This document shows, piece by piece, positions 14,930-37,450 of a stretch of 37,604 nucleotides of DNA. The position numbers and the translations under genes were made by a program. The stretch is from Clostridia bacterium (GTDB lineage Bacteria; Bacillota; Clostridia; Christensenellales; Aristaeellaceae), in contig JAFWEL010000120.1 in assembly GCA_017512905.1 (NCBI GenBank), positions 1-37,604 on the forward strand, in the 5' to 3' direction. The notes under the pieces were generated by a model. It was not told where the DNA came from. It searched no databases and worked only from the letters and a program-made list of their open reading frames with translations. The stretch's first letter is position 1, and every line of letters begins with the position of its first letter.

Positions 14930-14979
14930 GGACGACACCTCCGGCCGGAAATCGCTGAAGGGCACGCTTTAACAAAGAT

Positions 14980-17774: not shown

Positions 17775-17825
17775 GCCGGCTGTATTCCCTTCGGGTGTTT
17801 GCAGTACCCATATTTTTACAAATCT

Positions 17826-17854
17826 ATTATAACACAGCGGGCATGATCTGTCCA
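17826..17854 (-). promoter_or_regulatory. Promoter of the membrane EAL gene
   Basis: On the minus strand, TGGACA (17849-17854), a 17-bp spacer and TATAAT (17826-17831). It lies just downstream of the terminator of the preceding gene. Confidence 0.7.
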
Positions 17855-17869
17855 CACGATTATGAAAAC

Positions 17870-19563: not shown

Positions 19564-19610
19564 ATATGTATAATAAAGGAATCCATCCCTTTAGGAAAGC
19601 AGGTGCGTCG

Positions 19611-20687
19611 ATGAAGCATATCCTGGAGCTGCTTCGCAAGAAGGTTCCCAGGTCCGGCAAGGCCATGCCCGCCTATTACAGGAGCGCGCTGGCCACCACG
19701 CAAATCGTGCTGGTCATCTATTTCCTGCTGGTCACGGTCATGCTCTCCCGGCTCAACCATCGCCTGGAGTGGGTGCCGGCGCTGATGGGCGTGGGCATGC
19801 TCGGCTGCCACTACTCCATCGGCCGGGTCAACTGCAGGCTGAACGTGTACGCCTTCGACCTGCTCATACTGATCTGGTGCGCGTGGCACACCTACTTCGT
19901 CGGGTGGAACTACGGAGCACAGCATCTGCTGATCCCGATGCTGATGCTCTGCTTCTTCAACATCTACGAGCCGCCCGCGCTGAAGCTGGTCACCTTCCTG
20001 CTGGTGGTGTTCTACCGGATGGCGCTGTTTTCCTACTCGCTGACACACGACGGCGTCTATACCATCGACGGCAAAACCATGATCGTGCTGCTCCAGCTGC
20101 TCAACAGCCTGACGCTCTTTGACATACTGGCCGTCGATTTCATCACCTTCAGCAGCAGCATCCAGGAGAACGAGCGGGAGCTGATCCTCCACAACCAGGC
20201 GCTACACAAGGAGGCCGGGACCGACCCGTTGACCCAGCTGCCCAACCGGCGCGCCCTTCTGGACGTGGTACACGCCTTTGTGGCCGCGCACCCGGACGAG
20301 CCCTACAGCGTCGCCATCGCCGATATCGACTTCTTCAAGAAGGTAAACGACACCTACGGCCACCACTGCGGCGATTATACGCTGAAGGAGCTCTCCGTCC
20401 TGTTCATGGCCCACGCCGAGAAGTATACCGCCTGCCGATGGGGCGGCGAGGAGTTTTGCTTCTTCATGCCCGGCCTGAACCTGGACGAGGCGGGCATCAT
20501 CATGAACGACCTGTGCAACGCGGTGCGCAAAATGCGGCTGCGCTTTGGCGAAGCGGATTATTCCATCACGATCACCATCGGCGTCGAGGAAAGCGACTTC
20601 CAGTCCCCGCCGGACGCGATTCTGGACAAGGCCGACCGTAAACTGTACATGGGCAAGGTCCACGGGCGGGACCAGGTTGTCATATAA
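19611..20687 (+). CDS. Membrane-bound diguanylate cyclase (GGEEF)
   Basis: The 358-residue protein is predicted to make c-di-GMP from two GTP. The first 185 residues contain about five to six membrane helices (for example IVLVIYFLLVTVML, LVTFLLVVFYRMALFS) and a short cytoplasmic helix. The GGDEF domain starts at TDPLTQLPNRRALLD and includes IADIDFFKKVNDTYGH and GGEEF at residues 278-282, all intact. There is no RxxD inhibitory site five residues upstream, so product inhibition through that site is not expected. The ATG at 19611 lies after the predicted transcription start; its ribosome binding site is weak (CAGGTG). It is followed 30 bp later by an EAL gene in the same direction. Confidence 0.92.
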   Translation: MKHILELLRKKVPRSGKAMPAYYRSALATTQIVLVIYFLLVTVMLSRLNHRLEWVPALMGVGMLGCHYSIGRVNCRLNVYAFDLLILIWCAWHTYFVGWNYGAQHLLIPMLMLCFFNIYEPPALKLVTFLLVVFYRMALFSYSLTHDGVYTIDGKTMIVLLQLLNSLTLFDILAVDFITFSSSIQENERELILHNQALHKEAGTDPLTQLPNRRALLDVVHAFVAAHPDEPYSVAIADIDFFKKVNDTYGHHCGDYTLKELSVLFMAHAEKYTACRWGGEEFCFFMPGLNLDEAGIIMNDLCNAVRKMRLRFGEADYSITITIGVEESDFQSPPDAILDKADRKLYMGKVHGRDQVVI

Positions 20688-20717: not shown

Positions 20718-23609
20718 ATGGAAAAGCTTGAACAGTTCATCGCCGCCAATTTTGAGGACGCCCTGGCGCGCGGCCATATACAGCCCTATTACCAGCCCGT
20801 CATTCGCACGATCTCGCGGCAGCTTTGCAGCTTCGAGGCCCTGGCGCGATGGGTGGACCCCCAGCGCGGCGTCATTCCCCCCGACCGGTTCATCCCCGTG
20901 CTGGAGCGCAACCAGGTCATCCACAAGTTGGACGCCTGCATCATACGCCAGGTCTGCGCCACGATCCGGGAGCGCATGGAGGCCGGGGACGTGCCCATAC
21001 CCGTGTCCGTGAACCTGTCCCGGCTGGACTTCACCCTGTGCGACATCTACAGCGTGGTCGACGACATTGTCACCCAGTATCAGATTCCCCACGATTTCTT
21101 ATACATTGAGGTCACTGAGAGCGTCATGGCCGAGCAGGAGGCCCGGATGCACGACATCGTAGATCGGTTCCACGCCGCGGGCTACCAGGTCTGGATGGAC
21201 GACTTCGGCAGCGCCTTTTCCTCGCTGAACGTGCTGAAGGACTATGAATTCGACGAGATCAAGCTGGACATGCGCTTCCTGAGCTCCTTCAACCAGCGCT
21301 CCCGCAGGATATTGACCGCCGTGATCCAGATGGCCAAGGAGATCGACATCCACACGCTGGCCGAGGGCGTGGAGACCCAGGAGCAGCTGCGCTACCTGCG
21401 CAACATCGGCTGTGAAAAGGTGCAGGGCTTCTACTTCGGCAAGCCCATGCCCTGGAGCGACGCCCTGGCCCACCTGAAGGACATCGGCATCGCCATCGAG
21501 AGCCCCAACGACCGGAAGTACTACGACGACATCGGCAAGGTCAACTTCCTCAGCGCCGTGCCCTTCATGACCCGGGAGGAGCGGGACGCGCTGAAGACCG
21601 CCCGCCAGCTGAACAGCATTCCCCTGGCCATCGCCGAGGGGCGAAAGGACGCCTTCAGCATTCTGTTCTACAACACCGCCTTCGAGCAGACCGCCGAGAG
21701 CACGGGCATGGTCTCCCACATCTTCACCCAGGAGATGCTGCGGGTCCCCCAGCCCTATTCCCTGCTGCCCCGTCGGCTGCTGGACCTGATGGAATACACC
21801 CGCACCGGCGAGGAGGGCCGCATGACCTTCATCTCCCACGGGGAATACTACGAGATCCAGGCCAAGTGCATCGCCCAGACGCGGGACGCCTACAGCGTGC
21901 TTTTCCGCATGAGCAACCTTTCGAAGGCCTCGATGGCCATCCAGCGGGACCAGCTGGACGACAGCATCCGTCAGATCTTCACGCTGTTCGAGCGCATCAC
22001 GCTGGTGGACGTGGCCGCCGACACCATCACGCCGCTGTACGTGGCCACCCGGAAAAACCTGCTCTCCGGCAGCACCGGTCTGAAGCAGCTGGCCGGGGAA
22101 TACGCTGAGCGACTGATCTTTCCCGAGGACCGGGAGGCCTACCGCCAGCTGATGGACTTCGACGTCATCGAGGAAAAGCTCCATGCCGCCGGACGCACCA
22201 ACATCTCCCGTTACCTGCGCACCCGCATCCGCCACGGGCAGTACGCCTGGAAGCAGTACATCGTGCTGCGAATGCAGGCCGGCGTCTATGTCGAGCTGAT
22301 CCGCAACGTCCACGCCGACCTGCTGCGATTTGTGAAGAACCACCACCTCACCCACCAGTCGACCGAGGCCGAGGCCGTCGACGCGCCGGAGGTGCTGTGG
22401 CGCAACCTGATCCACTCCGACATCGCCCGCCTGTTCTGGAAGGACCGGGACCGCCGCTTCCTCGGGGCCAGCCAGGGCTTCCTGGACTACTACGGCTTTG
22501 CCTCCAGCGAGGAGATCGTCGGAAAGACGGATGAGGACCTGGGCTGGCACGTCCACCCGGACAGCTACATGAATGACGAGCTGCGGGTGATCCACGAGGG
22601 CATCACCACCCACAACATCCCGGGCCACTGCATCAGCAACGGCGAAAACCGGGACATCCTCGCCAGCAAGACGCCCCTCTTCGATCGCAACGGGGAGGTC
22701 CAGGGCCTGATTGGCTGCTTCCTGGACCGGGACCTGCTGAACGTCAATGACAGCCGCGGCAAGGAGACGAAGCGCCGGGACATGCTCACCGGCCTGCTCA
22801 ACAGCCGGGGTATCACCGAGGAGGCCCACACCTTCAGGGATGAATATGACCTGCGCAACGTGGATTTCGTGCGCATGCACGTCGCCATCGACGATTTCAC
22901 GTCCATCAACCGCCGGTACGGCTTCGACTTTGGCGACAAGGCCATCGCCGCGCTGGGCCGGGCGCTGAAGGACGCCTTCGGGCTGACCTGCGCCGTCGGG
23001 CGCTATTCGGGGCATCAGTTCGTGGTGCTGCACCAGATTCACAGCCGGGAGGAGGTCGGCCAGCTGCGCGCCAGGATCAAGAAGATCGCCTCCCGGATCC
23101 AGCAGATCGACGGCATCGCGCTGACGCTGTACCTGTCCGTGGGCTATTGCGTCTATTCCGAATGCGAGGACCTGGACGAGCAGACCCAGAAATCGGAGGT
23201 CCGGCTGCTGGCCGACCACGACGACCACTCCACCGTGGAAAACCGCCAGAGTCGCGCCGCCGAAATCTTCCGCCTGTACGACGACCTGCCCATCCCCTAC
23301 TGCGTCTGCCGGATCGTGGCCGACGAGGATCGCCGGGTGCACGACGGGATACTGTTCTACGTCAACCACGCCTTTGAACGCCAGCGGAACATGGAGGCCG
23401 CGCAGATGTTGGGCCGCAGGGTCAGCGCCCTCTTCAGGCAGCCCGATGAAAAATGGCGGGACATCGCCCGCCGCGCCGCCCTGGAGGGCGAGAGCATTGT
23501 GGAACGGGTGCCCGCCCCGGACACCGACGCACAATACCTCGTGAGCGCCAGCCCCGTCATCCACCCGGGTTACTGCTGCTTTACGGTGCAGCGGATCGAG
23601 GGGGTATAG
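20718..23609 (+). CDS. EAL-PAS-GGDEF(degenerate)-PAS c-di-GMP phosphodiesterase
   Basis: A 963-residue cytoplasmic protein with an inverted domain order. The EAL domain is at the very N-terminus (residues 1-250) and complete: FEALARW, VNLSR, EVTES, WMDDFGSAFSSL, EIKLDMRF, AEGVET and QGFYFGKPMP. Two PAS-like regions follow (about 290-395 and 410-545), then a clearer PAS domain (about 565-680, with LFWKDRDRRFLGAS and GKTDEDLG). A GGDEF fold (about 685-845) has the signature changed to SGHQF, so it is inactive as a synthase. A final PAS-like domain ends the protein (about 848-963). AAGGGGA lies about 8 nt before the ATG. It is almost certainly co-transcribed with the diguanylate cyclase upstream, so one operon carries opposing enzymes. 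Confidence 0.92.
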   Translation: MEKLEQFIAANFEDALARGHIQPYYQPVIRTISRQLCSFEALARWVDPQRGVIPPDRFIPVLERNQVIHKLDACIIRQVCATIRERMEAGDVPIPVSVNLSRLDFTLCDIYSVVDDIVTQYQIPHDFLYIEVTESVMAEQEARMHDIVDRFHAAGYQVWMDDFGSAFSSLNVLKDYEFDEIKLDMRFLSSFNQRSRRILTAVIQMAKEIDIHTLAEGVETQEQLRYLRNIGCEKVQGFYFGKPMPWSDALAHLKDIGIAIESPNDRKYYDDIGKVNFLSAVPFMTREERDALKTARQLNSIPLAIAEGRKDAFSILFYNTAFEQTAESTGMVSHIFTQEMLRVPQPYSLLPRRLLDLMEYTRTGEEGRMTFISHGEYYEIQAKCIAQTRDAYSVLFRMSNLSKASMAIQRDQLDDSIRQIFTLFERITLVDVAADTITPLYVATRKNLLSGSTGLKQLAGEYAERLIFPEDREAYRQLMDFDVIEEKLHAAGRTNISRYLRTRIRHGQYAWKQYIVLRMQAGVYVELIRNVHADLLRFVKNHHLTHQSTEAEAVDAPEVLWRNLIHSDIARLFWKDRDRRFLGASQGFLDYYGFASSEEIVGKTDEDLGWHVHPDSYMNDELRVIHEGITTHNIPGHCISNGENRDILASKTPLFDRNGEVQGLIGCFLDRDLLNVNDSRGKETKRRDMLTGLLNSRGITEEAHTFRDEYDLRNVDFVRMHVAIDDFTSINRRYGFDFGDKAIAALGRALKDAFGLTCAVGRYSGHQFVVLHQIHSREEVGQLRARIKKIASRIQQIDGIALTLYLSVGYCVYSECEDLDEQTQKSEVRLLADHDDHSTVENRQSRAAEIFRLYDDLPIPYCVCRIVADEDRRVHDGILFYVNHAFERQRNMEAAQMLGRRVSALFRQPDEKWRDIARRAALEGESIVERVPAPDTDAQYLVSASPVIHPGYCCFTVQRIEGV

Positions 23610-23773: not shown

Positions 23774-24619
23774 TCACCCTAACACCGGCCCGATGGTGCC
23801 GCCCTCCACCAGCTCTACCGGGAAAACATTGGCTTTGCGGGAGGCGGTTTCGGGGGATTCGATCAGGTCGATCAGTCGCTTGGCCGCCATCTGGCCGATG
23901 TCCTCGCTGCTCTGGCGGATGGTGGTCAGCCTGGGCGTCATGGCCTGGGTGAGGGGGATGCCGTCATAGCCGCCGAAGGAGATGTCCGCGGGGATGCGCA
24001 GGCCCAGCTCCCTGGCCGCCTCCTGGGCGCCCAGATAGCCCACGTCGTCGGGCAGCATGATGCAGGTGGGCCGCTGGGGCAGCTGGAGCAGCTCCAGCAC
24101 AATCCGGCGGGTCAGGCCGATGTTGTCGTACAGGCCCTCCCGCACGTATTCCGGCGGCACGGGCAGTTCGTGATAGGCCATCGTGTTGTGGAACTGGCTG
24201 ATGCGCGTCCGGGTGACGATGGAGTTATCGTGGCCGTAGATGAAGGCGATGCGGCGATGACCCTTTTTGATCGCGAACTCCACCAGTCGCTGGACGCCGG
24301 TCTCGTTGTCCGACAGCACGGCGGGCGTGTGCCTGTAGATGTGGTCGATGGTGACGCAGGGAATGCCGCTCTCCACCAGCGCCTTGAACCTGGGGGCGCG
24401 GAAATCCACGCAGACCATGCACACGCCGTCGATGTTGCCCCGGCGACAGTGCTCGGCATAATCCTCGTCCTCGGCCGGGTGCATGAACGTGATGTCATAC
24501 CCCCGGCGCGCGGCCTCCACCTTGATGGCGTTCAATATCAGCACAAAGAAGGGATGCGTGATTCCCCGTCCGCTCTCGTCCGCGTAAAGTATGCCAAGAT
24601 TCGGCGTATGCCCGGTCAT
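23774..24619 (-). CDS. LacI-type ligand-binding protein lacking the DNA-binding domain
   Basis: The 281-residue protein matches the periplasmic-binding-like core of LacI/GalR regulators: NLGILYADESG, GHRRIAFIYGHDNS, PADISFGGYDGIPLTQAMTPRLTTIRQ, and LVEGGTIGP at the end. LacI proteins normally begin with about 55 residues of helix-turn-helix and hinge; here the ligand domain starts at once. There is no signal peptide, so it should be cytoplasmic. The ATG at 24619 was chosen because GGAGG lies 8 nt upstream; the GTG at 24628 overlaps that site. The stop codon of the permease-kinase gene is 14 bp upstream, so no lost HTH is hidden there. It is the last gene of the signalling operon. A sugar-type ligand is likely from the family, but the partner is unknown. 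Confidence 0.88.
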   Translation of the reverse strand: MTGHTPNLGILYADESGRGITHPFFVLILNAIKVEAARRGYDITFMHPAEDEDYAEHCRRGNIDGVCMVCVDFRAPRFKALVESGIPCVTIDHIYRHTPAVLSDNETGVQRLVEFAIKKGHRRIAFIYGHDNSIVTRTRISQFHNTMAYHELPVPPEYVREGLYDNIGLTRRIVLELLQLPQRPTCIMLPDDVGYLGAQEAARELGLRIPADISFGGYDGIPLTQAMTPRLTTIRQSSEDIGQMAAKRLIDLIESPETASRKANVFPVELVEGGTIGPVLG

Positions 24620-24633
24620 AGTTGCCACCTCCG

Positions 24634-27600
24634 CTACATGATCAGGGTATTGGTTGCCGCGGCGCTTGAGCGCGCGGAGTGTATCAGCTTGTCAAGGGTC
24701 TCGTACAGGCGCTCCGGCTCCACAGGCTTGGACAGGTGCGCCGTCATGCCCGCCTGGAGGGAACGCTGCACGTCCTCGTCAAAGGCGTTGGCCGTCATGG
24801 CGATGATGGGCACGGTTTTGGCGTCCTCGCGGTCCAGCTCTCGTATGGCGCGGGTGGCCTCGAGACCGTCCATCACCGGCATGCGCACATCCATCAGTAC
24901 CGCGTCGTAGTGGTGCAGCGGCTGCGCGGCGAACATCTCCACCGCCAGCTGGCCGTTCTCGGCATGGTCGGATTCGATGTCCTCCATCTCCAGCAGGTCC
25001 ATCAGGATGTCCGCGTTGATCTCCATATCCTCGGCGATCAGCACGCGGCAGCCCTCCAGGTCATATTTCCCATCCCCGGTGGCTTCCTCCACCACCGGTC
25101 CCTGGGCATCCGGGGCGCCGGAGCCGCGCCGGTCGATGATGCCCAGCAGCTCGCGCATCAGGCTGTCGGTAAACAGCGGCTTGGACATGATGCCGTCCAC
25201 GCCCGCCGCCCTGGCCTCGGCCTGCATGTCGTCCCAGCTGTAGCCGGTCAGGACGATGATGGCCGTCTCGCCAGCGTCGATGGCGCGTATGGCGCGGGTC
25301 AGGTCCAGGCCATCCATATCCGGCATCTTGTAATCAGTCAGCACAAAGCCATAGGGATTGCCCTGGTTTCTCAGGACCTGGACCCGGTCCAGCGCCTCCC
25401 GGGCGCTGGTCACGGTATCCGCCTCGACGCCGATGGCGTTGGCCACCAGTCGGGCATGCTCGCAGGCCACGGTGTCGTCGTCCACCACCAGGATCCGAAG
25501 CCCCTGGGGCAGCGCCCAGCCCTGCTCGGAATTGACGCTGCGGCTGGAGGCCTTCAGCGTGACGGTGACGGTAAACGTGGTGCCGACGCCCTTTTCACTG
25601 TCCACGGCGATTTCGCCGTTCATCATATCGACGATGTTCTTGGTGATAGCCATGCCCAGGCCGGTACTGCCGTACTTGTTGGCCGCGCGGGAATCCTCCT
25701 GGGAAAAGGCCTCGAAGATCTTGGGGATGTACTCCTTGCTCATGCCGATGCCGGTGTCCTTCATGATAAAGCGCAGGGTGCAATGGCCCTCGAATTCGGC
25801 CACCTGCTCCACCGTGAAGGTGACGGAGCCGGGCACAGGCGTGAACTTTACGGCGTTGCCCAGGATGTTAATCAGCACCTGCTTGAGCTTCATGTCGTCG
25901 CCGATGTAATAATCGTTCACCTGGCCGATGATCTGGCAGTCAAAGTCCAGCCCCTTGTCCATGCACTGGCCGTTGACCATGACGTTGATCTGGTCGATGA
26001 AATCCCGGAAGCTGAATTCCTCGCTCTTGAGCACCATGCGCCCGGATTCGATGCGGCTCATGTCCAGGATGTCGTTGATCAGGCCCAGCAGGTGCTTGGC
26101 GCTGGCGCCGATCTTTTCCAGCTGCTCCCGGGTATGGGGGGTCAGGTCCGGGTCCTTCAAGGCGATGTTATCCAGGCCGATGATGGCGTTCATCGGTGTG
26201 CGGATCTCGTGGCTCATGTTGGACAGGAAGCTGGTTTTGGCGCGGCTGCTCTCCTCCGCCAGCACCTTTTCAACCTCTATCTGCTTTTCCCGCTTCTGCA
26301 TCAGGAAAAAGATGTAGAACAGTATGCCCAGCGCGAACACGATCAGCAGGGTTTGTATCATGCTGTTGCGAATCAGTGCGTTGCCCACATTGTCCAGCAC
26401 CTCCCGCAGATAGCTGTCCGCGGAGCGGGTGGAGGTCGAGACGATGTCCACCCCCGCCTCCTCGAGCTTCTGGGTGTAGAAGGCCTGTATCGGCGTGACG
26501 GCGTTTTCGGTGGCGTTCTCAGTGGCCTGGCGCATCCAGATGGTGGTGGTCAGTATGATCAGCGCCAGCAGCACCACCCAAACCACCGGCGATCGCCCCA
26601 GGCGGCGGGCGGTATCCCGGCGGAACAGATAGAGAAAGAACACGAAGCCCAGTATGCCCCAGGCGGCGAGGATCAGGTAGGACTCGGTGGAGAGGGTCTT
26701 GACCGCCATCAGGTTGGGGATCAGGAAATAGAGCATCAACAGCAGCGAGATGACCACGCCCGCCAGTCCCGTCACCCGCGCCCACCGTTCGCCGTTGATC
26801 CGGGCGGACCGGGCCGCGGCGGCGGAGGTATAGGCATAGGCGATGGTGGCGCCTACCGTGGTCACGTCCACGATCCAGCTGATGGCCGTGCGGCCCAGCA
26901 GGGGCAGCACCGCGGACACGCAGAGTATGAACAGGATGGCATTCCGGGGCACACCGCCTTCGTCCAGCCTGCCCATCCAGGCCGGCATCATGTCATCCTG
27001 AGCCATCGCGTACAACAGGCGGCTGGAGGCGATGGTGTTGCCCACCAGGCCGGTGACGATGGCGCCCAGCGTGGTCAGCCCCAGCACCACGGGACCCAGC
27101 GAACCCATCAGCGCCTCCGCCGCGTAGAACGTGGGCAGGCCCTGAACGCCAGAGTAGCTGCCGAGGTTGGAGATGTAATCCGTCCAGCCTGCGCAGCCCT
27201 CCGGCAGCGCGCACACCGCCAGCACCGAAAGCCAGGCATAGGCGATCGCGGCCGTGATGACGGCGATGGCCATGATCCTGAAGCTCTTCCTGACGGGAAA
27301 TTTGAATTCCGTCGCGGAATGGGAGATGGACTCAAAGCCCACATAGGCCCAGGGCGCGAGGGCGATGATCGTAAGCACGCCCGCAATCGGGCTGCCTTCG
27401 GGGGCGAAGGAGGGCGCGATGCTGCCCAGCCTGCTGGCCGGATTTGTGATGGCAGAGAGGATGCTCACCAGGATGCCGCCGCCCAGCAGCAGCGCCATGA
27501 TGATCTGCACCGTGCCGGCGACCCTGCCCCGCAGGCAGAACAGCGCCGCGATGCCCAGCGCCGCGATGGCCAGCAGCACCTCGCCCATGTAGATGTCAAA

Positions 27601-28026
27601 GCCGGCGATTCGGTAGTGGAAGCCGAACTGGAACAGAGCGCCGAACAGGTTGCGGGCGATCAGCGGCAGCGCGGTGGCGTTGGCCCAGATGATGGCCACG
27701 TAGGTCAGCAGCAGGAACCAGCCGTTCAGGAAGCCGTGGTCATAGCCGAAATTGTGCTTGGCGTAGGCGTAGGTGCCGCCGGCGTCGGGCTCCCGGTTCA
27801 TCAGGTAGTGGTAATTAGCCCCGATGACCAGCATGATCAGCCCGCCGATGACGATGCCCAGCACCGTCCCCAGGGGCCCCGCCACCGGCAGGAAGGTGGT
27901 TCCCGGCATGACAAAGGCGCCCCAGCCCACGCTGCAGCCAAAGGCCAGCGCCCATGCGCCCAGGCCGGACAGATAGCGCAGGAGGCCCTTCCCCCGCGCT
28001 TTATTGGATGGATTCAACCCAATCAC
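24634..28026 (-). CDS. APC amino-acid permease fused to hybrid histidine kinase (HK-REC-REC)
   Basis: The 1130-residue protein begins with a complete APC-superfamily permease-like region (about residues 15-480, roughly 12 helices, first-helix motif GWGAFVMPG, then EPDAGGTYAYAKHNFG). Two further helices (about 490-505 and 560-580) bracket an extracytoplasmic segment of about 55-65 residues. The kinase follows: phospho-acceptor His606 in NMSHEIRTPMNAI, N box ILGNAVKFTP, and ATP-lid motifs DTGIGMS and STGLGMAI. Two receiver domains end it, with Asp898 (LTDYKMPDMDG) and Asp1046 (LMDVRMPVMDG). The transporter probably serves as the sensor, as in SLC5-kinase fusions such as CbrA. The start is GTG with AAAGGG close upstream; a TTG three codons later is possible. 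The Hpt gene is 27 bp upstream and the LacI-like gene 14 bp downstream. Confidence 0.93.
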   Translation of the reverse strand: MIGLNPSNKARGKGLLRYLSGLGAWALAFGCSVGWGAFVMPGTTFLPVAGPLGTVLGIVIGGLIMLVIGANYHYLMNREPDAGGTYAYAKHNFGYDHGFLNGWFLLLTYVAIIWANATALPLIARNLFGALFQFGFHYRIAGFDIYMGEVLLAIAALGIAALFCLRGRVAGTVQIIMALLLGGGILVSILSAITNPASRLGSIAPSFAPEGSPIAGVLTIIALAPWAYVGFESISHSATEFKFPVRKSFRIMAIAVITAAIAYAWLSVLAVCALPEGCAGWTDYISNLGSYSGVQGLPTFYAAEALMGSLGPVVLGLTTLGAIVTGLVGNTIASSRLLYAMAQDDMMPAWMGRLDEGGVPRNAILFILCVSAVLPLLGRTAISWIVDVTTVGATIAYAYTSAAAARSARINGERWARVTGLAGVVISLLLMLYFLIPNLMAVKTLSTESYLILAAWGILGFVFFLYLFRRDTARRLGRSPVVWVVLLALIILTTTIWMRQATENATENAVTPIQAFYTQKLEEAGVDIVSTSTRSADSYLREVLDNVGNALIRNSMIQTLLIVFALGILFYIFFLMQKREKQIEVEKVLAEESSRAKTSFLSNMSHEIRTPMNAIIGLDNIALKDPDLTPHTREQLEKIGASAKHLLGLINDILDMSRIESGRMVLKSEEFSFRDFIDQINVMVNGQCMDKGLDFDCQIIGQVNDYYIGDDMKLKQVLINILGNAVKFTPVPGSVTFTVEQVAEFEGHCTLRFIMKDTGIGMSKEYIPKIFEAFSQEDSRAANKYGSTGLGMAITKNIVDMMNGEIAVDSEKGVGTTFTVTVTLKASSRSVNSEQGWALPQGLRILVVDDDTVACEHARLVANAIGVEADTVTSAREALDRVQVLRNQGNPYGFVLTDYKMPDMDGLDLTRAIRAIDAGETAIIVLTGYSWDDMQAEARAAGVDGIMSKPLFTDSLMRELLGIIDRRGSGAPDAQGPVVEEATGDGKYDLEGCRVLIAEDMEINADILMDLLEMEDIESDHAENGQLAVEMFAAQPLHHYDAVLMDVRMPVMDGLEATRAIRELDREDAKTVPIIAMTANAFDEDVQRSLQAGMTAHLSKPVEPERLYETLDKLIHSARSSAAATNTLIM

Positions 28027-28053: not shown

Positions 28054-28425
28054 TCAATTGCTTTCCTCGTACTCCGTGATGCACTGAACGGTCTGCCGGT
28101 AGCGCCGGAGGAGGGCCGCCAGCTTTTCCTTCACCGCGTCGTCGGAAAGGGTGCGGGGATTCCCGGCGCGATATTCCTCGGTGATCTCGTCGGCGGCGTT
28201 CGCCAGCCCCTCCAGGCCCAGGTTGGAGCAGACGCCCTTCATCGCGTGGGCGCTTTCAAACAGCTTCACCGCGTCCATCGTCTCACCGGCCTCGGCCAGC
28301 ATATCGCCCACATTGCTGTTCTTCAGCTTGCGGACGTACTTGTCGATCAGCTTGTCCTTCTTCATCACACGGACGGCCTGGTCGTAATTGCCGCCGATTT
28401 TTGTATACAGCTCCTGGATTGTCAT
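28054..28425 (-). CDS. Free-standing Hpt phosphotransfer protein
   Basis: The 123-residue all-helical protein is a histidine phosphotransfer domain. The phospho-accepting residue is His60 in ESAHAMKGVCSNLGL, the canonical HxxKG pattern. It should shuttle phosphate between receiver domains of the two hybrid kinases and the response regulator of this operon. Its ATG overlaps the stop codon of the REC-GGDEF-EAL gene (ATGA), which implies translational coupling, with GGGAG about 8 nt upstream. The permease-kinase gene follows 27 bp downstream. Confidence 0.93.
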   Translation of the reverse strand: MTIQELYTKIGGNYDQAVRVMKKDKLIDKYVRKLKNSNVGDMLAEAGETMDAVKLFESAHAMKGVCSNLGLEGLANAADEITEEYRAGNPRTLSDDAVKEKLAALLRRYRQTVQCITEYEESN

Positions 28426-30125
28426 GCCTGTTTCTCCCTCTCGATCTGTTTCTCCCTGACGATCAGCGGTTCAAATTCCTCCGGGGGCACCGGGCGCGAG
28501 AAGTAATAGCCCTGGATCAGGTCGCATCCGGCCTCCTTGAGCATGTTCAGTTGCTCCTCTGTTTCCACGCCCTCCGCCACCACCGGTACCTTCAGGTACC
28601 GGGCGATGTCCAGCACCACGCCGACCAGCCGGAAATCCTTTTCGCTCTGGACGATGTTGCGCACGAACTTCATGTCCATCTTCAGCACGTCGATGGGCAT
28701 GGAGGACAGCATGTTCAATGATGAATAGCCGGAGCCGAAGTCATCCATCTCGATTTCAAAGCCCCGACCCCGCAGGCGGTTGATCAGCTCGATCATCTGC
28801 TCGGCATTTTCGGTATAGGCGGACTCGGTGACCTCCAGCTTCAGAGCCTTGTGATCCAGGCCGTAGCGCTCCACCAGCGACTCCAGGCGCTCCTCCAGGG
28901 ACGGGTCGAACACGTCCACCCGGGACAGGTTCACCGATACCGGCAGGGTCACGCCGAATTTCTCCCGCCATTCGGCGATCTGGCGGGCGGCCTCGTTCCA
29001 CACGTAATGGTCCACGGTACTGATCTGGCCGTTGCTCTCGAACAGCGGTATAAACGTGCCCGGGGAGACCAGGCCCAGCTCCGGGTGGTTCCAGCGGATC
29101 AGCGCCTCGGCGCTGGACAGCCTGGGCGGGTCGCACTGCACGTTGTACTTGGGCTGGTAAAAGACCTTCAGCTCCCGCTCCTCCACGGCCCTGACCAGGT
29201 CGTTCACCAGGCGCTGGTTCAGCAGCTCCCGCCGGTACATCTCCTCGTCGTAAATCATCAGGTGGGACTTGTAATTGCCCCGGACCATGCCGCAGGCGGC
29301 CCTCGCGCGGTCGAACAGCGTCACCGGGTCCACCCCTTCCCGCCAGGGGGCCACGCCCATACGCAGGCGGATGCCCGCGATGTGGGACGCCTCGTTGACC
29401 CGGGTCTGGATCTTGTCCAGCAGCGCCTGGTAATCGGTCTGGGGCTCGCAGAGGATGGCGAAGCGATCCCCCTCAAAGCGGCTGGCGATGCCGTTGCTGT
29501 CGGCCAGGAAGGCGCGGATGCCGTCGCCGATGATCCCCAGCACACGGTCGCCAAATTCGCGCCCGTTCAGCGCGTTGACAGAATGGAAGTGGTCGATGTT
29601 CAGCACGACCGCGTCCATGTGCCAGCCCTGCTGGTACCGGTAGATCCGGTTGGCGTATTCGAAGAAGAAGTTGCGGGTATAGAGCCCGGTCAGCGGGTCG
29701 TGCTCCGCCGCCTGGATCAGCTGGCGGCCTTCACTGAGCTCGATGATGCGCTCCACGCGGGCCAGTATGATCTCGTGCATGTCGAAGGGCTTGGTGATAA
29801 AGTCCGCCGCGCCCATCTCCAGCGCCCGCAGCTCGGCGTTGCGCTCGGCGGTCAGCACGATGATCGGGATGCTCTTCAGGAGCTCGTCGTTGCGCACACA
29901 GTCGAGCACCTTGAAGCCGTCCATTTCGGGCATGATCAGATCCAACAATACCACGGACAGCTTGTCCCGGTATTCCTCGATCATTTGAAGCGCTTCCCTG
30001 CCGTTGGAAGCGTATATGATGTCATAATAGTCCTCCAGGATCATCCCCAGCACATCGCGGTTGATCTCCTGGTCGTCTACAATCAAAACCAGTTGGGGCT
30101 TTTTTAATTGTTTGGATTTGATCAT
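28422..30125 (-). CDS. REC-GGDEF(degenerate)-EAL response regulator
   Basis: The 567-residue protein has a receiver domain (about 10-130) with phospho-acceptor Asp62 in VVLLDLIMPEMDG, an acidic pair VDDQE and Lys in FITKPFD. A GGDEF fold (about 140-300) follows, starting HDPLTGLYTRN, with the signature changed to EGDRF. The EAL domain (about 315-560) is intact: AEALIRW, VNLSR, EVTES, EMDDFGSGYSSL, VLKMDMKF, AEGVET and QGYYFSRPVP. Phosphorylation probably controls c-di-GMP hydrolysis, making it the output of the phosphorelay encoded beside it. The ATG at 30125 has GGAGGA 7 nt upstream; the earlier TTG overlaps that site. It overlaps the Hpt gene by 4 bp. Confidence 0.94.
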   Translation of the reverse strand: MIKSKQLKKPQLVLIVDDQEINRDVLGMILEDYYDIIYASNGREALQMIEEYRDKLSVVLLDLIMPEMDGFKVLDCVRNDELLKSIPIIVLTAERNAELRALEMGAADFITKPFDMHEIILARVERIIELSEGRQLIQAAEHDPLTGLYTRNFFFEYANRIYRYQQGWHMDAVVLNIDHFHSVNALNGREFGDRVLGIIGDGIRAFLADSNGIASRFEGDRFAILCEPQTDYQALLDKIQTRVNEASHIAGIRLRMGVAPWREGVDPVTLFDRARAACGMVRGNYKSHLMIYDEEMYRRELLNQRLVNDLVRAVEERELKVFYQPKYNVQCDPPRLSSAEALIRWNHPELGLVSPGTFIPLFESNGQISTVDHYVWNEAARQIAEWREKFGVTLPVSVNLSRVDVFDPSLEERLESLVERYGLDHKALKLEVTESAYTENAEQMIELINRLRGRGFEIEMDDFGSGYSSLNMLSSMPIDVLKMDMKFVRNIVQSEKDFRLVGVVLDIARYLKVPVVAEGVETEEQLNMLKEAGCDLIQGYYFSRPVPPEEFEPLIVREKQIEREKQA

Positions 30126-30170
30126 AAACCGTTCCTCCAATAACCATCCTTTGCCATAAATGCGGCGGCG

Positions 30171-31643
30171 CTACGCCACCAGTTCCCTCAGCGTTTCATA
30201 CAGAAGGTCGGTATCCACCGGCTTGGGCAGATGGGCGTTCACGCCCGCCTCCATCGACTGGCGCACGTCCTCGTCGAAGGCGTTGGCGGTCAGCGCGATG
30301 ATGGGCACGGTCCCGGCGTCGGGGCGGGGCAGCGCCCGGATGGCCCGGGTGGCCTCCAGCCCGTCCATCACCGGCATGCGCAGGTCCATCAGGATCGCGT
30401 CAAAGCGTCCCGGCGGGGACTGGGCGAAGGTGTCGACGGCCACGCGGCCGTTCTCCGCCCGCTCGCTGGTGACGTCCTCCAACTCCAGCAGGTCGGCCAG
30501 CAGGTCGGCGTTCAGGTCTACATCCTCGACGATCAGCATGTGCTTTCCCGCCAGCGAAGACGTCTCATCCTTTCCCGAATCCAGGGCCGCCGCGTCGCAA
30601 TCGTCGACGAACCCCAGCCTGACCGTGACGATGAAGGTGCTGCCCTCGCCCTTGCGGCTGTGGACGGCAATATCGCCGTCCATCATTTCCACCAGTTTTT
30701 TGGTGATCGCCAGCCCCAGGCCGCTGCCGCCGTAGCGGTTGGTGGCGGTGGCGTCCTCCTGAGAGAAGGAATCGTAAAGCCGGGGCATGAATTCCTCGTC
30801 GATGCCAATGCCCGTATCGCTGATGGTGAAGCGCATCCCACAGTATTCCCCCTCCCTGGGCAGCTGCTCGGCCACAAAGGTCACCGAACCGCCTTGGGGC
30901 GTGAACTTCACCGCGTTTGACAGTATGCTCAGCAGCACCTGCCGCAGGCGCAACGAATCGCCGATACAGGTATCTCTCAGCTCACCGACCACCTCATGCC
31001 GGTAGTTGAGCCCCTTTTCCTCGCAGAGCATGCGGGCCAGCACGTTCACCAGGTTCAGCAGGTCGGCAGGCGAGAAGGGCTCCGCAATCACCGACATTTC
31101 CCCCGATTCGATGTGGTTCATGTCCAGCACATCGTTGATCATGTCCAGCAGGTGATGGGCACTGATATCGATCTGCTCCAGCCGCTCCCGGGTCTGGGGC
31201 CGCAGGGTTTCATCCTGCAACACGAGGCTGTTCAGGCCGATGACCGCGTTCAGCGGGGTGCGCATCTCGTGGCTCATGGTAGCCAGGAAATTGCTCTTGG
31301 CGCGGTTGCTCTCCTCCGCCGCCAGCAGCTGGGCCTCCAGGTGCTCATTTTCGACGATGCGCTGGGTAATGCCCCTGAGCAGCTTGTACATGACAAAGAC
31401 GAACACGCTGCCGCCGAAGAGTATGCCGGCCACGATGATATCCGGCTTGCCGAATATGCCCACCGCCAGATAGCCCATCAGGAAGCAGACAAGCAGCACG
31501 ATGGGCAGGTACAGTATTCGATTGTTGGCATGCCAGGAATCCAGCTTTTTCACATAGCGGGCAAACCGCACAAAGCCGCAGATATTGTAGACCATGAGCA
31601 GGCTGCCCAGATAGACCATGGCGAGCGTCAACCCTCGCATCAT
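30171..31643 (-). CDS. Membrane hybrid histidine kinase (HK-REC)
   Basis: The 490-residue protein has three membrane segments in the first 90 residues (LTLAMVYLGSLLMVYNICGF, YLPIVLLVCFLMGYLAVGIF, IIVAGILFGGSVFVFVMY) with almost no external loop. The kinase shows His125 in TMSHEMRTPLNAV, N box ILSNAVKFTP, DTGIGID and GGSGLGLAI. A receiver domain ends it, with Asp420 in LMDLRMPVMDG. Kinase core and receiver closely resemble those of the permease-kinase fusion (shared AAEESNRAK/LAEESSRAK and ALTANAFDEDV/AMTANAFDEDV stretches), so the two are paralogues. The ATG at 31643 has AGGGGGT 7 nt upstream; the GTG at 31652 abuts that site. It is the first gene of the five-gene operon. Confidence 0.93.
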   Translation of the reverse strand: MMRGLTLAMVYLGSLLMVYNICGFVRFARYVKKLDSWHANNRILYLPIVLLVCFLMGYLAVGIFGKPDIIVAGILFGGSVFVFVMYKLLRGITQRIVENEHLEAQLLAAEESNRAKSNFLATMSHEMRTPLNAVIGLNSLVLQDETLRPQTRERLEQIDISAHHLLDMINDVLDMNHIESGEMSVIAEPFSPADLLNLVNVLARMLCEEKGLNYRHEVVGELRDTCIGDSLRLRQVLLSILSNAVKFTPQGGSVTFVAEQLPREGEYCGMRFTISDTGIGIDEEFMPRLYDSFSQEDATATNRYGGSGLGLAITKKLVEMMDGDIAVHSRKGEGSTFIVTVRLGFVDDCDAAALDSGKDETSSLAGKHMLIVEDVDLNADLLADLLELEDVTSERAENGRVAVDTFAQSPPGRFDAILMDLRMPVMDGLEATRAIRALPRPDAGTVPIIALTANAFDEDVRQSMEAGVNAHLPKPVDTDLLYETLRELVA

Positions 31644-31717
31644 GCGATTCACCCCCTGTTATGCGCTTTCAACGGTCCGCACAGGACGCCGGCCGCAGCG
31701 TGCGCAGGTACGAAAAT

Positions 31718-31789: not shown

Positions 31790-33136
31790 CTATTGCGCAA
31801 CCTGACAGCCATGTCCCCCGGCAGCCTTGACCGCGTACATGGCGGCGTCGGCGCGCTTGAAGATCGCCTCGGTATCCTGGCTCGCGTCGCCATAGGCCAC
31901 GCCGCAGCTGAGGCTGATCGGCGGCAGCCCGTCCTCGCAGTCGGCGAGGATATCGTTGATGCGGGACGCCTTCTGCTTCACCAGCTCCGTGTGAGCGCTG
32001 TCGGTATGCACCATGATGACCGCGAACTCGTCGCCGCCGATGCGGCAAACGTGGTCCTGGTTGCGGAAGCTGTTTCGTATGACCTGCGCCACCTTCACCA
32101 GCGCCTTGTCCCCCAGCTCGTGGCCGTTGCCGTCGTTGATCTGCTTGAACTTGTCGACGTCAAACAGCAGCAGCGCCGAGCTCCGCCAGTCGGTGTTCTT
32201 CAGAAAGAACACATAGCCGCTGCGGTTGTGGATGCCCGTCAGCTGGTCGTGGGTCGCGTCATAGGTCAGGCGCTCGGTCTTTTCCTTGTTTGCCTCGTAC
32301 ATCAGGTTGTAGGTCTTGGCCAGGAACTGGAATTCGTTGGAGCCCTTGATGGGGATCGGCTGGTCCGCGCGGATGTACACTACGGCCCGCAGCAGCGGGC
32401 TGACCACCAGCAGCGTGGTCAGCAGCATGGTGAACAGCGTGGCGAGGATTGCGATGAGTATCAGCGTGCGCTCCTTGAACAGCATGTCGTCCAGGGCTTC
32501 GATGGACGCCTTCTGGTGGTTCTCCACCTCATTGGTCAGGGTATCCAGGCATTCCTGCACATGGGCGGAGATGGACTCCTTCTTTATGTGATAAACGTCA
32601 TCAAACACCATCTTCCGGGCGCGGACCTCCTGCTTGGCCCGGGGCAGCAGCGCGTCCTCCTCCGACAGCTCCACCGCCCGGATAGCCTGCGGAAATTCCT
32701 TCACATCGTAGCCGTTGGCCGCCACAGCCAGACGCATCGCGTAATACTCCCGGTCCATCAGCGCCACGGATTCCTCCATCGCCGCCTCCAGGGCGGTGTA
32801 CGCATCGTGGTCGTCGGTAATGGCCCGGATGCTGTCCAGGGCCTTGTCCCGCCGCCGGGTGACCTCCGCCTCTTCAAAGTAGTTGTCCAGGTATTCCCGC
32901 TTGCCCGTCTCCACGAAGCAGCGAACCTGCTCGGTCAGGTAGTCCGAGGCCATTTGCAGCTTGTCAGCGTCCCGCTCCCACTGGATGTAATTGCCGGTGT
33001 ATTCCCGCATCCGGGAATAGCCCACCTTGGTCCTGAAGGTAGTGAATAGCAGCAGCACCGATATGACCAGCATCAGAAGTGCCATCAGCATCTGGATACT
33101 CCGGATGGAGACGCCCTTCACCTTGTCGCGCAGCAT
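31790..33136 (-). CDS. Membrane-bound diguanylate cyclase (GGDEF) with external sensor
   Basis: The 448-residue protein is predicted to make c-di-GMP. A membrane helix (about 13-33) and a second (about 230-255) enclose an extracytoplasmic helical region of about 195 residues, similar in design to four-helix-bundle or CHASE-type sensors. A short linker precedes the GGDEF domain, which begins THDQLTGIHNRSGY and contains FDVDKFKQINDGNGHE and GGDEF at 367-371. The inhibitory site RNQD at 358-361 lies exactly five residues before GGDEF, so product feedback inhibition is expected. The ATG at 33136 has AGAGGT 8 nt upstream; the ATG at 33169 has no ribosome binding site. Confidence 0.94.
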   Translation of the reverse strand: MLRDKVKGVSIRSIQMLMALLMLVISVLLLFTTFRTKVGYSRMREYTGNYIQWERDADKLQMASDYLTEQVRCFVETGKREYLDNYFEEAEVTRRRDKALDSIRAITDDHDAYTALEAAMEESVALMDREYYAMRLAVAANGYDVKEFPQAIRAVELSEEDALLPRAKQEVRARKMVFDDVYHIKKESISAHVQECLDTLTNEVENHQKASIEALDDMLFKERTLILIAILATLFTMLLTTLLVVSPLLRAVVYIRADQPIPIKGSNEFQFLAKTYNLMYEANKEKTERLTYDATHDQLTGIHNRSGYVFFLKNTDWRSSALLLFDVDKFKQINDGNGHELGDKALVKVAQVIRNSFRNQDHVCRIGGDEFAVIMVHTDSAHTELVKQKASRINDILADCEDGLPPISLSCGVAYGDASQDTEAIFKRADAAMYAVKAAGGHGCQVAQ

Positions 33137-33199
33137 GATAACCGACCTCTTCTGTAGATTTATTGCCATTGTTTGTAAAAAAACGAAATTATCAGGTTA

Positions 33200-34228: not shown

Positions 34229-37200
34229 TCAGGAGATCCTGAACCTTGCCGTCACCTTCGCAGGCAATTGGTAATTCGGATTGGACAGCTTGTAGGCCGT
34301 GGCGATGTACGCGCCCCTTTTCTTTTTGGCGCCGCTGACCCGCACGATGCATTTATCCCCCTCGATCAACCCGACGGCGGCGGCTGTGGGCTTCTGGTAA
34401 TTCCCGTTGTATTTCAGCCGGGTACCGGTCCACTTCAGGCGGATCGTCTTCTTCCGGATCGTGCAGGTCTTTGTCCGCGCCTTCGGCAGCGCGTAATTGC
34501 CGTTGGAGAGCCCGGTGGCCTTTGCCGTGTAGCTGCCCGCGTTCTTTCGGGACCCCTTCACCGTCACCACGCACCGGTCGCCATCGACCAGGCCGGTGGC
34601 CGTCGCGGTGGGCTTCTGGGCCTTGCCGTTGTAGACCAGACTTGTCCGGGACCACTTCAGGCCCACTGTTCTGGGTTTGATGACGAACGCCTGGCTCACA
34701 TTCTGAGGCAGCGCATAGTTGCCGTTGGACAGGCCCGTCGCCGTGGCAGTATAGGATCCCGCGTCCCTCTGCGCGCCGGTCACCGCGACTGCGCAGCTGT
34801 CCCCGGAAACCAGGCCCGTCGCCGCGGCGGTTGGCATATGAGCGTTGCCATCATAGGTGAAGCGGGTGTCCGACCAGATCAGCTTCACCGCCCTCGGGAC
34901 GATAGTGAACGCCCGGGTGACGTTCCCCTCCAGGGCATAGTTGCCGTTGGACAGGCCCGTCGCCGTGGCGGTGTAGCCGCCCGCGTCCCGCCGACCGCCG
35001 GTCACCGTGACTGCGCAGCTGTCCCCGGAAACCAGGCCCGTCGCAGTGGCGGTTGGCATATGAGCGTTGCCATCATAGGTGAAGTCGGTATCCGACCAGC
35101 TCACCTCCACCGGCTTCGGCGCGATGGTAAACGCCCGGGTCACATCCCCCGCCAAGGCATAGTTGCCGTTGGACAGGCCCGTCGCCGTGGCGGTGTAGCT
35201 ACCTGCGTCCCGCCGGCCGCCGGTCAAAGTGACCGCGCAGCTGTCCCCGGAAACCAGACCCGTCACAGTGGCGGCGGGCAGGTGGACGCTGCCGTCATAG
35301 GTGAAGCTGTCCTCCGACCAGCTCAGCGCCACCGCCTTTGGAGCAATGGTGAACGCTCGGGTGGCGGTCCCCGCCAGCACATAGTTGCCGTTGGACAGGC
35401 CCGTCGCCGTGGCGGTATAGCTGCCTGCGTCCCGCCGGCCGCCAGTCACCGTGACCGAACAGCTGTCCCCGGGAACCAGGTTATCCACCGTCGCCGCGGG
35501 GGCTTGGGCCTCGCCGTTGTAGGTCAGGTCCGTGTTCGTCCAGGCCAGCGTCGCCGCCCTCGGGGCGATGTTCACCGTCGCCGCTCCCGTCAGTACGCCT
35601 TCCGATTCGACGCGATAATAGACCGTGTAGGTGCCCGCGTCTTTCCACGTCGGACTCTGGCCGAGGTCATACGTGCCGCTGGCCGTACCGTAGGACACGC
35701 TGCCGGAGGCCGTTGTGACGGTGATGCCGTGGGGCTGGCCGTCATATTCCCCCTCGTAACCCTGGACAGCATAGGTGCAGGTCGGGCGCGCGGTGGCGGT
35801 CACGTTCCCCCAGGGCATCGCAAAGCGCCACTGGCCACCGCCCAGCGGCTGCACATCCAGTCTGCCGCCCCCGAAGCTCACCCCGACCCCATCCGCCGCG
35901 TAGCCCGGGTCGGGCTTCAGCGTCAGCGTGACAGCCTGGCCGGCATCCGCCACCTGGGGATCGGCGGCCAGGGTGCCGTGCTCCGCCGATACGGTCACGG
36001 CGTAGCCCTTGCCATAATCCTCAGCGGACAGGCTTCGCCATGCGGCGGAGAAGGTGGCCAACGTGTTGGCGTTATAGGTGTATTTGAGTGAGCCGCAGGT
36101 GAAGCCGCTGTCCGACCGGTCGCTGCTGCCCTTCAGGAATACCCGCTCATTGCAGGCGTCGCCGCCGTCGCTGTTGGTCAGGTCCACCGGATAGCAGCGC
36201 CCGTCGGGCATGCGCACCGCGTTCCACATGTGGGTGCCGGCGGGAATTTCGCCGCCCATCAGCTCGCAGTAGACTTCACCGCTGAAGTCGGACAGGTCAC
36301 ACAGGTACTTGAAGGCCTTGGAATAGCCCTCGCACACCACCCTCGTGCCGTCGTCGCCGTCGAAGACGTACACCAACTGCCAGGGATCGCCATAGGGGGT
36401 GTTCGGGTTGCCCGCCGCGTCGTTGTTGTAGGCCGTCAGGCCGCAGATGGCATTGGCATAGGCGCGCAGCTTGTCCAGGTCGCCCTTGCCCCTGTTGTCC
36501 GCGACGATGGCGTTGATTGTCGTCACGGCGTCGTTGACCCGGGCGGGCAGATCGTTCACCTCGTAGGCGCCCGCCGCGCCGGTCCGGGAATAGGCCGCGA
36601 CGACGGCGATATTCGCAGTCATGCCCGTCAGGCGGGCGCGGCCGTCCTTGATGACCTTGCTAAAGCTCCAGCCCATGCCGCCAGTCACCTTGTCGAACCA
36701 GTACAGGTCATAGGGACAGTCGGCCAGGAGGGCCTGCATGATCTTTTTCTGGTCAAAGCCTTCCGCATTCAGCAGCTTGCTGCCCAGGCTGCTGTCGTCC
36801 AGGCTGGCCAGGCCCAGCTGCTCCGCGGTCCACCAGCTATCGGCCAGGCCGGCGGCGGCGTCGTCAACCTTCATCCGGGTGGCGGTGCGCCTGCCCTCGG
36901 CAACCTCCCGGATCATGGGCACCAGGGCGTCGTAGAGCCTTTGGTTGATGCCATCCAGGCTTGCCCGGCCGGAACGCGCCGAGGCGTTGGCGCGCAGGCC
37001 CCCGCCCGGCAGCCGCTGGCGCATCCAGGCCTCGAGGAGCGCGTCGCCGTCCAGCCCTTTGGCGCTCGTCAGTCGCTTCGTGGTGTCCGCGGCAGACGCC
37101 GTGAGCCCGTCGCTCTCCCGCCCGGGGGCTTCCGTGCCCTGAATGAGGTCATCCTCCGTGAGCCGGAGCTCCAGCGGGCCGTCCAGGAGCAGGTCCCGGT

Positions 37201-37402: not shown

Positions 37403-37450
37403 CCGACACACCTCCTGTCAATGAAATACATATAACTACCCATTGTGAGC

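Follow-up and report, generated by a model that had tools for sequence, protein, structure and literature searches.

An amino-acid permease fused to a two-receiver hybrid histidine kinase in a Clostridia bacterium: a probable APC-fold receptor linked to c-di-GMP

Introduction

Can an amino-acid importer become the sensory part of a signalling enzyme? This question is raised by a gene of a Clostridia bacterium (Aristaeellaceae; assembly GCA_017512905.1), in which an APC-type permease continues in the same frame into a hybrid histidine kinase with two receiver (REC) domains. The gene lies on contig JAFWEL010000120.1, whose positions 1 to 37,604, the whole stretch of DNA analysed, are called the window in the following. 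An earlier reading of these letters, made without database searches (the sequence-only reading), had proposed this architecture and had suggested that transport flux or substrate occupancy could be read directly as phosphorylation. Transporter-like receptors are described as rare, bacteria included, in passages of two sources (PMC11109136, PMC13022988). In this gut bacterium, an amino-acid importer appears to have been turned into a kinase-fused membrane receptor. With a probability of roughly 60%, the best reading of the sequence evidence is that an APC-fold membrane receptor controls cyclic diguanosine monophosphate (c-di-GMP).

Architecture of the fusion protein

Based on Pfam comparison, the N-terminal part of the window protein is a full-length permease of the APC type: AA_permease_2 matches residues 19-440 (E-value (E) 4e-23, 82.5 bits, cut-off 27) and AA_permease matches residues 30-469 (E 3.8e-23). 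The sequence-only reading had staked its case on a significant APC match in this half of the protein, and there is one. The closest solved structures by sequence are CAT4 (9sqh, E 7.1e-21), GkApcT (5oqt, E 4.3e-17) and CAT1, which match along the core. GWG in transmembrane helix (TM) 1 and GFE in TM6 align to GTG and GFD of GkApcT, so that the GxG and GF-acidic motifs are present, which we take to have their usual meaning for the APC family. No SSF (SLC5) domain was matched in the window protein or in 49 module sequences among the Pfam families listed, and the window protein matches only permease, kinase and receiver families (E 0.001), an ammonium transporter (Amt) domain being absent. Membership in SLC5 or Amt was thus ruled out by Pfam.

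The C-terminal part is a complete two-receiver hybrid histidine kinase, read in one 1130-aa frame with the permease. It contains the motifs SHEIRTPMN (605), NAVKFTP (724), DTGIGM (757) and GSTGLGMAI (786), and hence the phosphoacceptor and the N, G1 and G2 motifs; His606, Asp898 and Asp1046 stand exactly where the sequence-only reading had placed them.

Hydropathy, averaged over the 78 rows of our alignment with a peak cut-off of 1.15 that we chose ourselves, gave fourteen peaks, twelve in the permease core (the one at 385-403 lies exactly at the cut-off) and two more at 480-498 and 555-573. The last two enclose a segment of about 52 aa that we infer to be external, in line with the earlier proposal of two extra helices with an external segment. 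This TM13-TM14 hairpin is present too in those fused relatives whose C-terminal side was read. Fourteen peaks would leave both protein ends in the cytoplasm, as a kinase fusion requires.

Distribution of the fusion

A fusion of this kind could be spurious if an error in sequencing or assembly had joined two genes, as the earlier reading had itself considered, and the source assembly is indeed fragmented (209 contigs). We therefore turn to relatives. A scan of species genomes gave at least 585 confirmed relatives, the best 80 of which were kept and checked for fusion; these are the best matches to a profile that itself includes the extra hairpin. In all 80, a single frame encodes the permease module together with HisKA or GGDEF; some of these loci end at a contig edge. 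Three sister fusions occur in the same genome as well. Since the architecture is conserved across relatives, the merging artefact was rejected, and we give it practically no weight. Both permease families were matched (E 0.001) in all 49 sequences of a Pfam scan sample that comprised 39 of the 78 alignment rows and 10 others.

The submitter titles assign 70 of the 78 rows in the alignment to Bacillota, 6 to Actinomycetota and 1 to Chloroflexota, the remaining row being the window protein. A ruminant or the rumen is named in 33 of the 80 titles, or in 62 of the 80 if RUG isolate names, which we take to denote the rumen, are added. Matches were found in 43 of 200 genomes of a family sample (E 1e-10), 6 of 297 of an order sample (E 1e-40), 8 of 391 of a class sample (E 1e-100) and 18 of 398 of a phylum sample (E 1e-40), counts that include stand-alone relatives and were obtained at thresholds that differ between samples. 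At the level of the genus, AA_permease_2 was matched in 26 of 28 genomes. This census took 92 rows, short fragment rows excluded; its 85 full-length matches lie in frames of at least 700 aa (60), 520-699 aa (16) and below 520 aa (9), the longest class being sorted by length and not frame by frame for an output domain. Stand-alone permease forms thus exist in sister species.

In the window's own genome (assembly of 3.53 Mb, 92% completeness), four AA_permease_2 and four AA_permease matches fall in the same four places, all of them fusions; no stand-alone protein of these two families, the only ones searched, was seen at this completeness. The three sisters are a 747-aa permease-GGDEF protein and two permease-GGDEF-REC-GGDEF-EAL proteins of 1457 and 1434 aa, with the Pfam architecture run on one of the latter two. 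Their permease modules are 35-42% identical to that of the window protein over about 590 residues, TM13 and TM14 included. The same genome holds 37 GGDEF matches (E 0.001).

Exchange of output domains

Six output types were found on one and the same module: kinase with one receiver, kinase with two receivers, PAS-kinase, GGDEF, PAS-GGDEF and GGDEF-REC-GGDEF-EAL. For a tree, we used 95 of 147 distinct permease rows (duplicate own-genome loci and partial modules excluded), namely every non-kinase row, a selection of kinase rows and, of the kinase rows left over, every third one. A starred clade of 69 rows comprises 40 kinase fusions, 25 cyclase fusions, 2 broken-looking and 2 contig-cut forms; a branch whose support of 94 falls short of the starred level separates the Actinomycetota-labelled rows from the rest. 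A second small clade consists of 5 kinase fusions and 2 proteins with the extra helices and without output. Stand-alone permeases are mostly found outside the fusion clades, L122 and L131 being placed beside them in a position that the tree does not settle. Over the 70 rows of the tree that are labelled kinase or GGDEF, a set without broken and contig-cut rows, this label has to change at least three times. Because the module keeps its form while the output changes, it behaves as an input domain.

Some relatives depart from these forms. Two 585-aa proteins (L118:1841-3595 and L119:1438-3192) carry the permease and the TM13-TM14 hairpin and end soon after, without output; possibly they are receptors that lost or borrow a kinase. 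At L136:3507-8418 and L137:396-5400, permease-kinase fusions stand in tandem pairs beside a CheB-type methylesterase gene, hinting at a link to chemotaxis; their kinase regions have diverged, and the phosphoacceptor region was missed by the HisKA query. In one assembly (L112:703-3192), the permease module shares its frame with a ThrH phosphoserine phosphatase/homoserine phosphotransferase (284 bits); this single case is either a fusion or a missing stop, and the available stretch ends before any output. An apparent extra N-terminal domain of L124 (1940 aa) was dismissed, as it is without Pfam match and looks like non-coding read-through.

Conservation of the putative binding pocket

Helix conservation was expressed as the mean majority-residue frequency in the 78 alignment rows. 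TM1 (0.87), TM3 (0.82), TM6 (0.84) and TM10 (0.83) are about level with HisKA (0.82), while TM5 (0.52), TM4 and TM7 (0.60 each) and the external hairpin (0.40) are less conserved. These values bear on the idea that the external TM13-TM14 hairpin senses the ligand, with the permease serving only to anchor the protein or as a platform for dimerisation. Kinases commonly receive their input through a helix hairpin with an external segment, and the hairpin accompanies the fusion in the relatives read on that side. However, its external segment is poorly conserved compared with TM1, 3, 6 and 10, and keeping a full APC core just as an anchor would be costly, so that we consider a hairpin sensor improbable.

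In APC-superfamily carriers, the pocket is built by TM1, 3, 6 and 8, as stated in the passage available of PMC5809530. We compared the residues of TM6 and TM8 between the 117 receptor rows that make up the main group, of which 92 are kinase and 25 cyclase fusions, and 19 stand-alone rows. Position 232 is Glu in 117/117 receptors and Asp in 17/19 stand-alone rows; position 235 is Pro in 0/117 versus 17/19; position 236 is His in 101/117 receptors and Gln in 17/19 stand-alone rows. The TM8 Asn of 16/19 stand-alone rows is found in 1/117 receptors, while position 330 is Asn in 102/117 receptors and Phe in 19/19 stand-alone rows. In all, five TM6/TM8 positions set the receptors apart from their stand-alone relatives, a pattern that fits a receptor pocket common to kinase and cyclase forms and unlike that of the transporters. 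In the small second kinase clade (5 rows), position 236 is Phe or Leu, and its ligand may therefore be a different one. Two further candidates were dropped: the loss of the TM5 lysine of GkApcT as a sign of lost transport, since the 19 stand-alone rows lack it too, and the TM1 Trp (GWG) as a receptor mark, since 15/19 stand-alone rows share it.

Alternatively, the protein could be a true transceptor that still transports its amino acid, its kinase being driven by transport turnover and not by occupancy, as proposed for CbrA; this is the bolder of the ideas in the sequence-only reading. The complete permease core with its conserved TM1, 3, 6 and 10 would suit this, as would the precedent of CbrA, which according to passages of PMC7096432 and PMC13022988 transports histidine and carries a kinase. 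On the other hand, the receptors share core TM6/TM8 substitutions relative to the stand-alone relatives, and the pattern of one module with many outputs requires no transport. A transceptor thus seems unlikely to us, if by no means negligible.

For the ligand, the gene context of stand-alone relatives provides a lead. At L141:750-7706, two of them lie between a sulfoacetaldehyde acetyltransferase (772 bits, cut-off 676) and an aminotransferase, suggesting that they are taurine transporters. Aminotransferases, which we take to be of the class III or omega type, occur near stand-alone relatives in L141, L142 and L144, while a methylmalonate-semialdehyde-dehydrogenase-like gene in L143 falls just under its cut-off (440.9 versus 448.5). 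This context hints at taurine or beta-alanine, which stays a lead only, because the receptors differ from the stand-alone relatives at TM6 and TM8.

Operon and c-di-GMP partners

Two neighbours of the fusion, a histidine phosphotransfer (HPt) gene and a REC-GGDEF-EAL gene (Table 1), were missed by the sequence-only reading together with the exchanged outputs, and all of these point to c-di-GMP. The HPt gene lies 27 bases upstream of the fusion and is overlapped by 4 bases by the REC-GGDEF-EAL gene. Judged from the genes alone, this is the layout of a phosphorelay, with HPt and terminal receiver co-encoded. Where 1 kb or more of DNA is available upstream of a relative, HPt is found there in 32/34 two-receiver versus 8/32 one-receiver loci, and REC-GGDEF-EAL in 29/34 versus 5/32; the other 7 loci, contig-cut or odd forms, have 4 of each. 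A small hybrid kinase further upstream, possibly a second input to the same HPt, recurs in 25/28 two-receiver loci when only those with 4 kb or more upstream are counted; on the same condition, all three partners are present in 24/28 two-receiver and 3/28 one-receiver loci. Loci labelled Actinomycetota account for four cases of the complete set, a contig-cut form among them. As this survey reached 4 kb upstream, the GGDEF gene beyond was not counted; it was seen in L009 and L016. Downstream, the LacI-type gene begins 5 bases past the fusion stop, with a homologue in 3/29 two-receiver and 1/34 one-receiver loci (at least 1.2 kb downstream).

The integrity of the GGDEF and EAL domains was judged over the set by these short motifs only. 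Among the REC-GGDEF-EAL frames of 500-700 aa from the relatives' loci and the window, 0/37 have the GGDEF motif and 37/37 the EAL motif. In contrast, the first directly fused GGDEF domain is intact in 31 of 32 distinct frames (30 GGDEF, 1 GGDEY), the remaining frame ending before the motif. The window's REC-GGDEF-EAL protein is thus predicted to be a phosphorylation-controlled c-di-GMP phosphodiesterase, so that the kinase form would act on c-di-GMP breakdown and the cyclase form on its synthesis.

These outputs also speak to a reverse direction of control, in which the state of the kinase or cyclase regulates the transporter. It is generally known that fused domains can control transporters. 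Nevertheless, the enzymes HK, GGDEF and GGDEF-REC-GGDEF-EAL have outputs that are relayed or that diffuse, and the two-receiver form is encoded together with HPt and an EAL enzyme; we regard such reverse control as very improbable.

Table 1. Features of the fusion gene and its neighbours in the window
Feature	Position	Strand	Basis or remark
APC-permease / two-receiver hybrid histidine kinase	24634..28026	-	single frame, 1130 aa, GTG start
APC permease core, residues 19-470, TM1-TM12	26617..27972	-	Pfam and 12 hydropathy peaks
TM13 - ~52-aa external segment - TM14 hairpin, residues 480-576	26299..26589	-	hydropathy; membrane side predicted
HisKA phosphoacceptor domain, residues 596-662, His606	26041..26241	-	Pfam
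HATPase_c, residues 709-824	25555..25902	-	Pfam
Receiver 1, residues 856-975, Asp898	25102..25461	-	Pfam
Receiver 2, residues 995-1111, Asp1046	24694..25044	-	Pfam
HPt phosphotransfer protein, 123 aa	28054..28425	-	Pfam Hpt, E 3.1e-7
REC-GGDEF-EAL protein, EGDRF in place of GGDEF, EAL intact	28422..30140	-	Pfam, motifs
Small hybrid kinase HisKA-HATPase-REC, hydrophobic N-terminus	30171..31652	-	Pfam
GGDEF protein, unit membership uncertain	31790..33169	-	Pfam
LacI-type ligand-binding protein without DNA-binding part	23774..24628	-	Pfam

Around the fusion, the window holds a dense c-di-GMP gene cluster (11954-33169), which in addition to the REC-GGDEF-EAL protein comprises EAL or GGDEF proteins at 11954-14965, 15834-17855, 19566-20687, 20718-23609 and 31790-33169. 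A 1060-aa protein with repeated MBG domains, probably secreted, is encoded at 34229-37411.

Discussion

Domain order, motifs, operon, exchanged outputs and conserved pocket helices allow a mechanism to be outlined. A small amine- or amino-acid-like ligand would bind in the central pocket of TM1, 3, 6 and 8 and shift the conformation of the module, and the TM13-TM14 hairpin would hand this change to a presumed kinase dimer. Phosphate might then pass from His606 to the fused receivers, on to the HPt protein of the adjacent gene and finally to the receiver of the REC-GGDEF-EAL protein, whose phosphorylation would alter c-di-GMP breakdown; the direction of the signal and its sign are suppositions of ours. 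The sister receptors of the same genome, with a similar pocket and intact diguanylate cyclases, would bring related signals to bear on both synthesis and breakdown of c-di-GMP.

Several points weigh against such a receptor. TM8, one of the pocket helices, is only moderately conserved (0.66), and conserved pocket helices are expected of a working transporter as well. The residues specific to the receptors may be no more than the signature of one clade that has a substrate of its own. On the tree, the fused versus stand-alone state needs 2 changes, and no clade made up of fusions alone takes in all of them. Most one-receiver kinases have no HPt or REC-GGDEF-EAL gene close by, so that the evidence for the c-di-GMP route comes from the other forms. 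Finally, CbrA, the closest precedent, transports histidine, yet its kinase activities were unaffected by histidine; expression of its targets survived deletion of the transporter domain, which seemed only to modulate the autokinase (both from passages of PMC7096432).

We nevertheless prefer the APC-fold receptor that acts on c-di-GMP. A bolder version, which we advance tentatively and at somewhat less than even odds, would have the APC permease fold as a widely used, exchangeable receptor domain of gut anaerobes: one non-transporting type of pocket would sit on kinases, cyclases and cyclase-phosphodiesterases, and within one cell, a single chemical cue would act on the synthesis of c-di-GMP by way of one protein and on its breakdown by way of another. 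The family of at least 585 relatives, with several outputs, extends over Bacillota, Actinomycetota-labelled bins and one Chloroflexota-labelled bin. The use of an importer-like part on several signalling enzymes suggests a mode of bacterial sensing that has been little described. Direct GGDEF fusions would report ligand binding as enzyme activity within a single polypeptide. With them, the old question of whether a transporter-like receptor signals by occupancy or by transport would become testable, also by swapping outputs on one module.

Comparison with known systems

The sequence-only reading had held that the transporter-kinase fusions known to it use the SLC5 fold. The SLC5 cases CbrA and CrbS stand, but SLC5 is not the sole fold, since the ammonium transporter-kinase KsAmt5 is described in passages of PMC8534201 and PMC10433425. 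Its statement that no characterised APC-type fusion was known agrees with our search of the open-licence literature, a scope that leaves out most subscription journals: none was found described there. The word permease occurs nowhere in the main text of a review on c-di-GMP sensory inputs (PMC8846402). Both SLC5 and APC belong to the APC superfamily and have the LeuT fold (PMC7918813, in part), and SLC5-STAC fusions to diguanylate cyclases are mentioned in PMC7096432.

Like the window fusion, the SLC5/STAC kinases (CbrA, CrbS, RpuS, MxtR) combine a transporter fold and a histidine kinase in one chain, and some of them are hybrid kinases. The window fusion differs by its APC family, by 14 predicted helices instead of 13, and by a TM13-TM14 hairpin with a linker in place of STAC; it is without PAS. 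By length alone, the roughly 20 residues between TM14 and HisKA leave no room for a STAC domain, given as about 72 residues in a passage of PMC7096432. Furthermore, the window fusion adjoins HPt and REC-GGDEF-EAL genes, whereas homologues of RpuS and CrbS adjoin a LuxR-type regulator (PMC9100948, in part).

KsAmt5 likewise joins a transporter-derived domain to a kinase, and its Amt domain is not an efficient transporter (PMC8534201, in passages that concern this one protein); the domain there is Amt, here an amino-acid permease. In 5TMR / S-component receptors, a transporter-related fold again serves as an interchangeable receptor for HK, GGDEF and EAL outputs (PMC11109136, in part). Their fold is another one, and their kinship to transporters was recognised by structure prediction, whereas the module described here has plain sequence similarity to permeases. 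The stand-alone APC permeases CAT4, GkApcT and CAT1 share the core and carry no kinase or cyclase output, while the stand-alone relatives compared above differ from the receptors in TM6 and TM8 residues. Taken together, the SLC5/STAC and KsAmt5 kinases are the same idea with other transporter families and the precedents for the window fusion.

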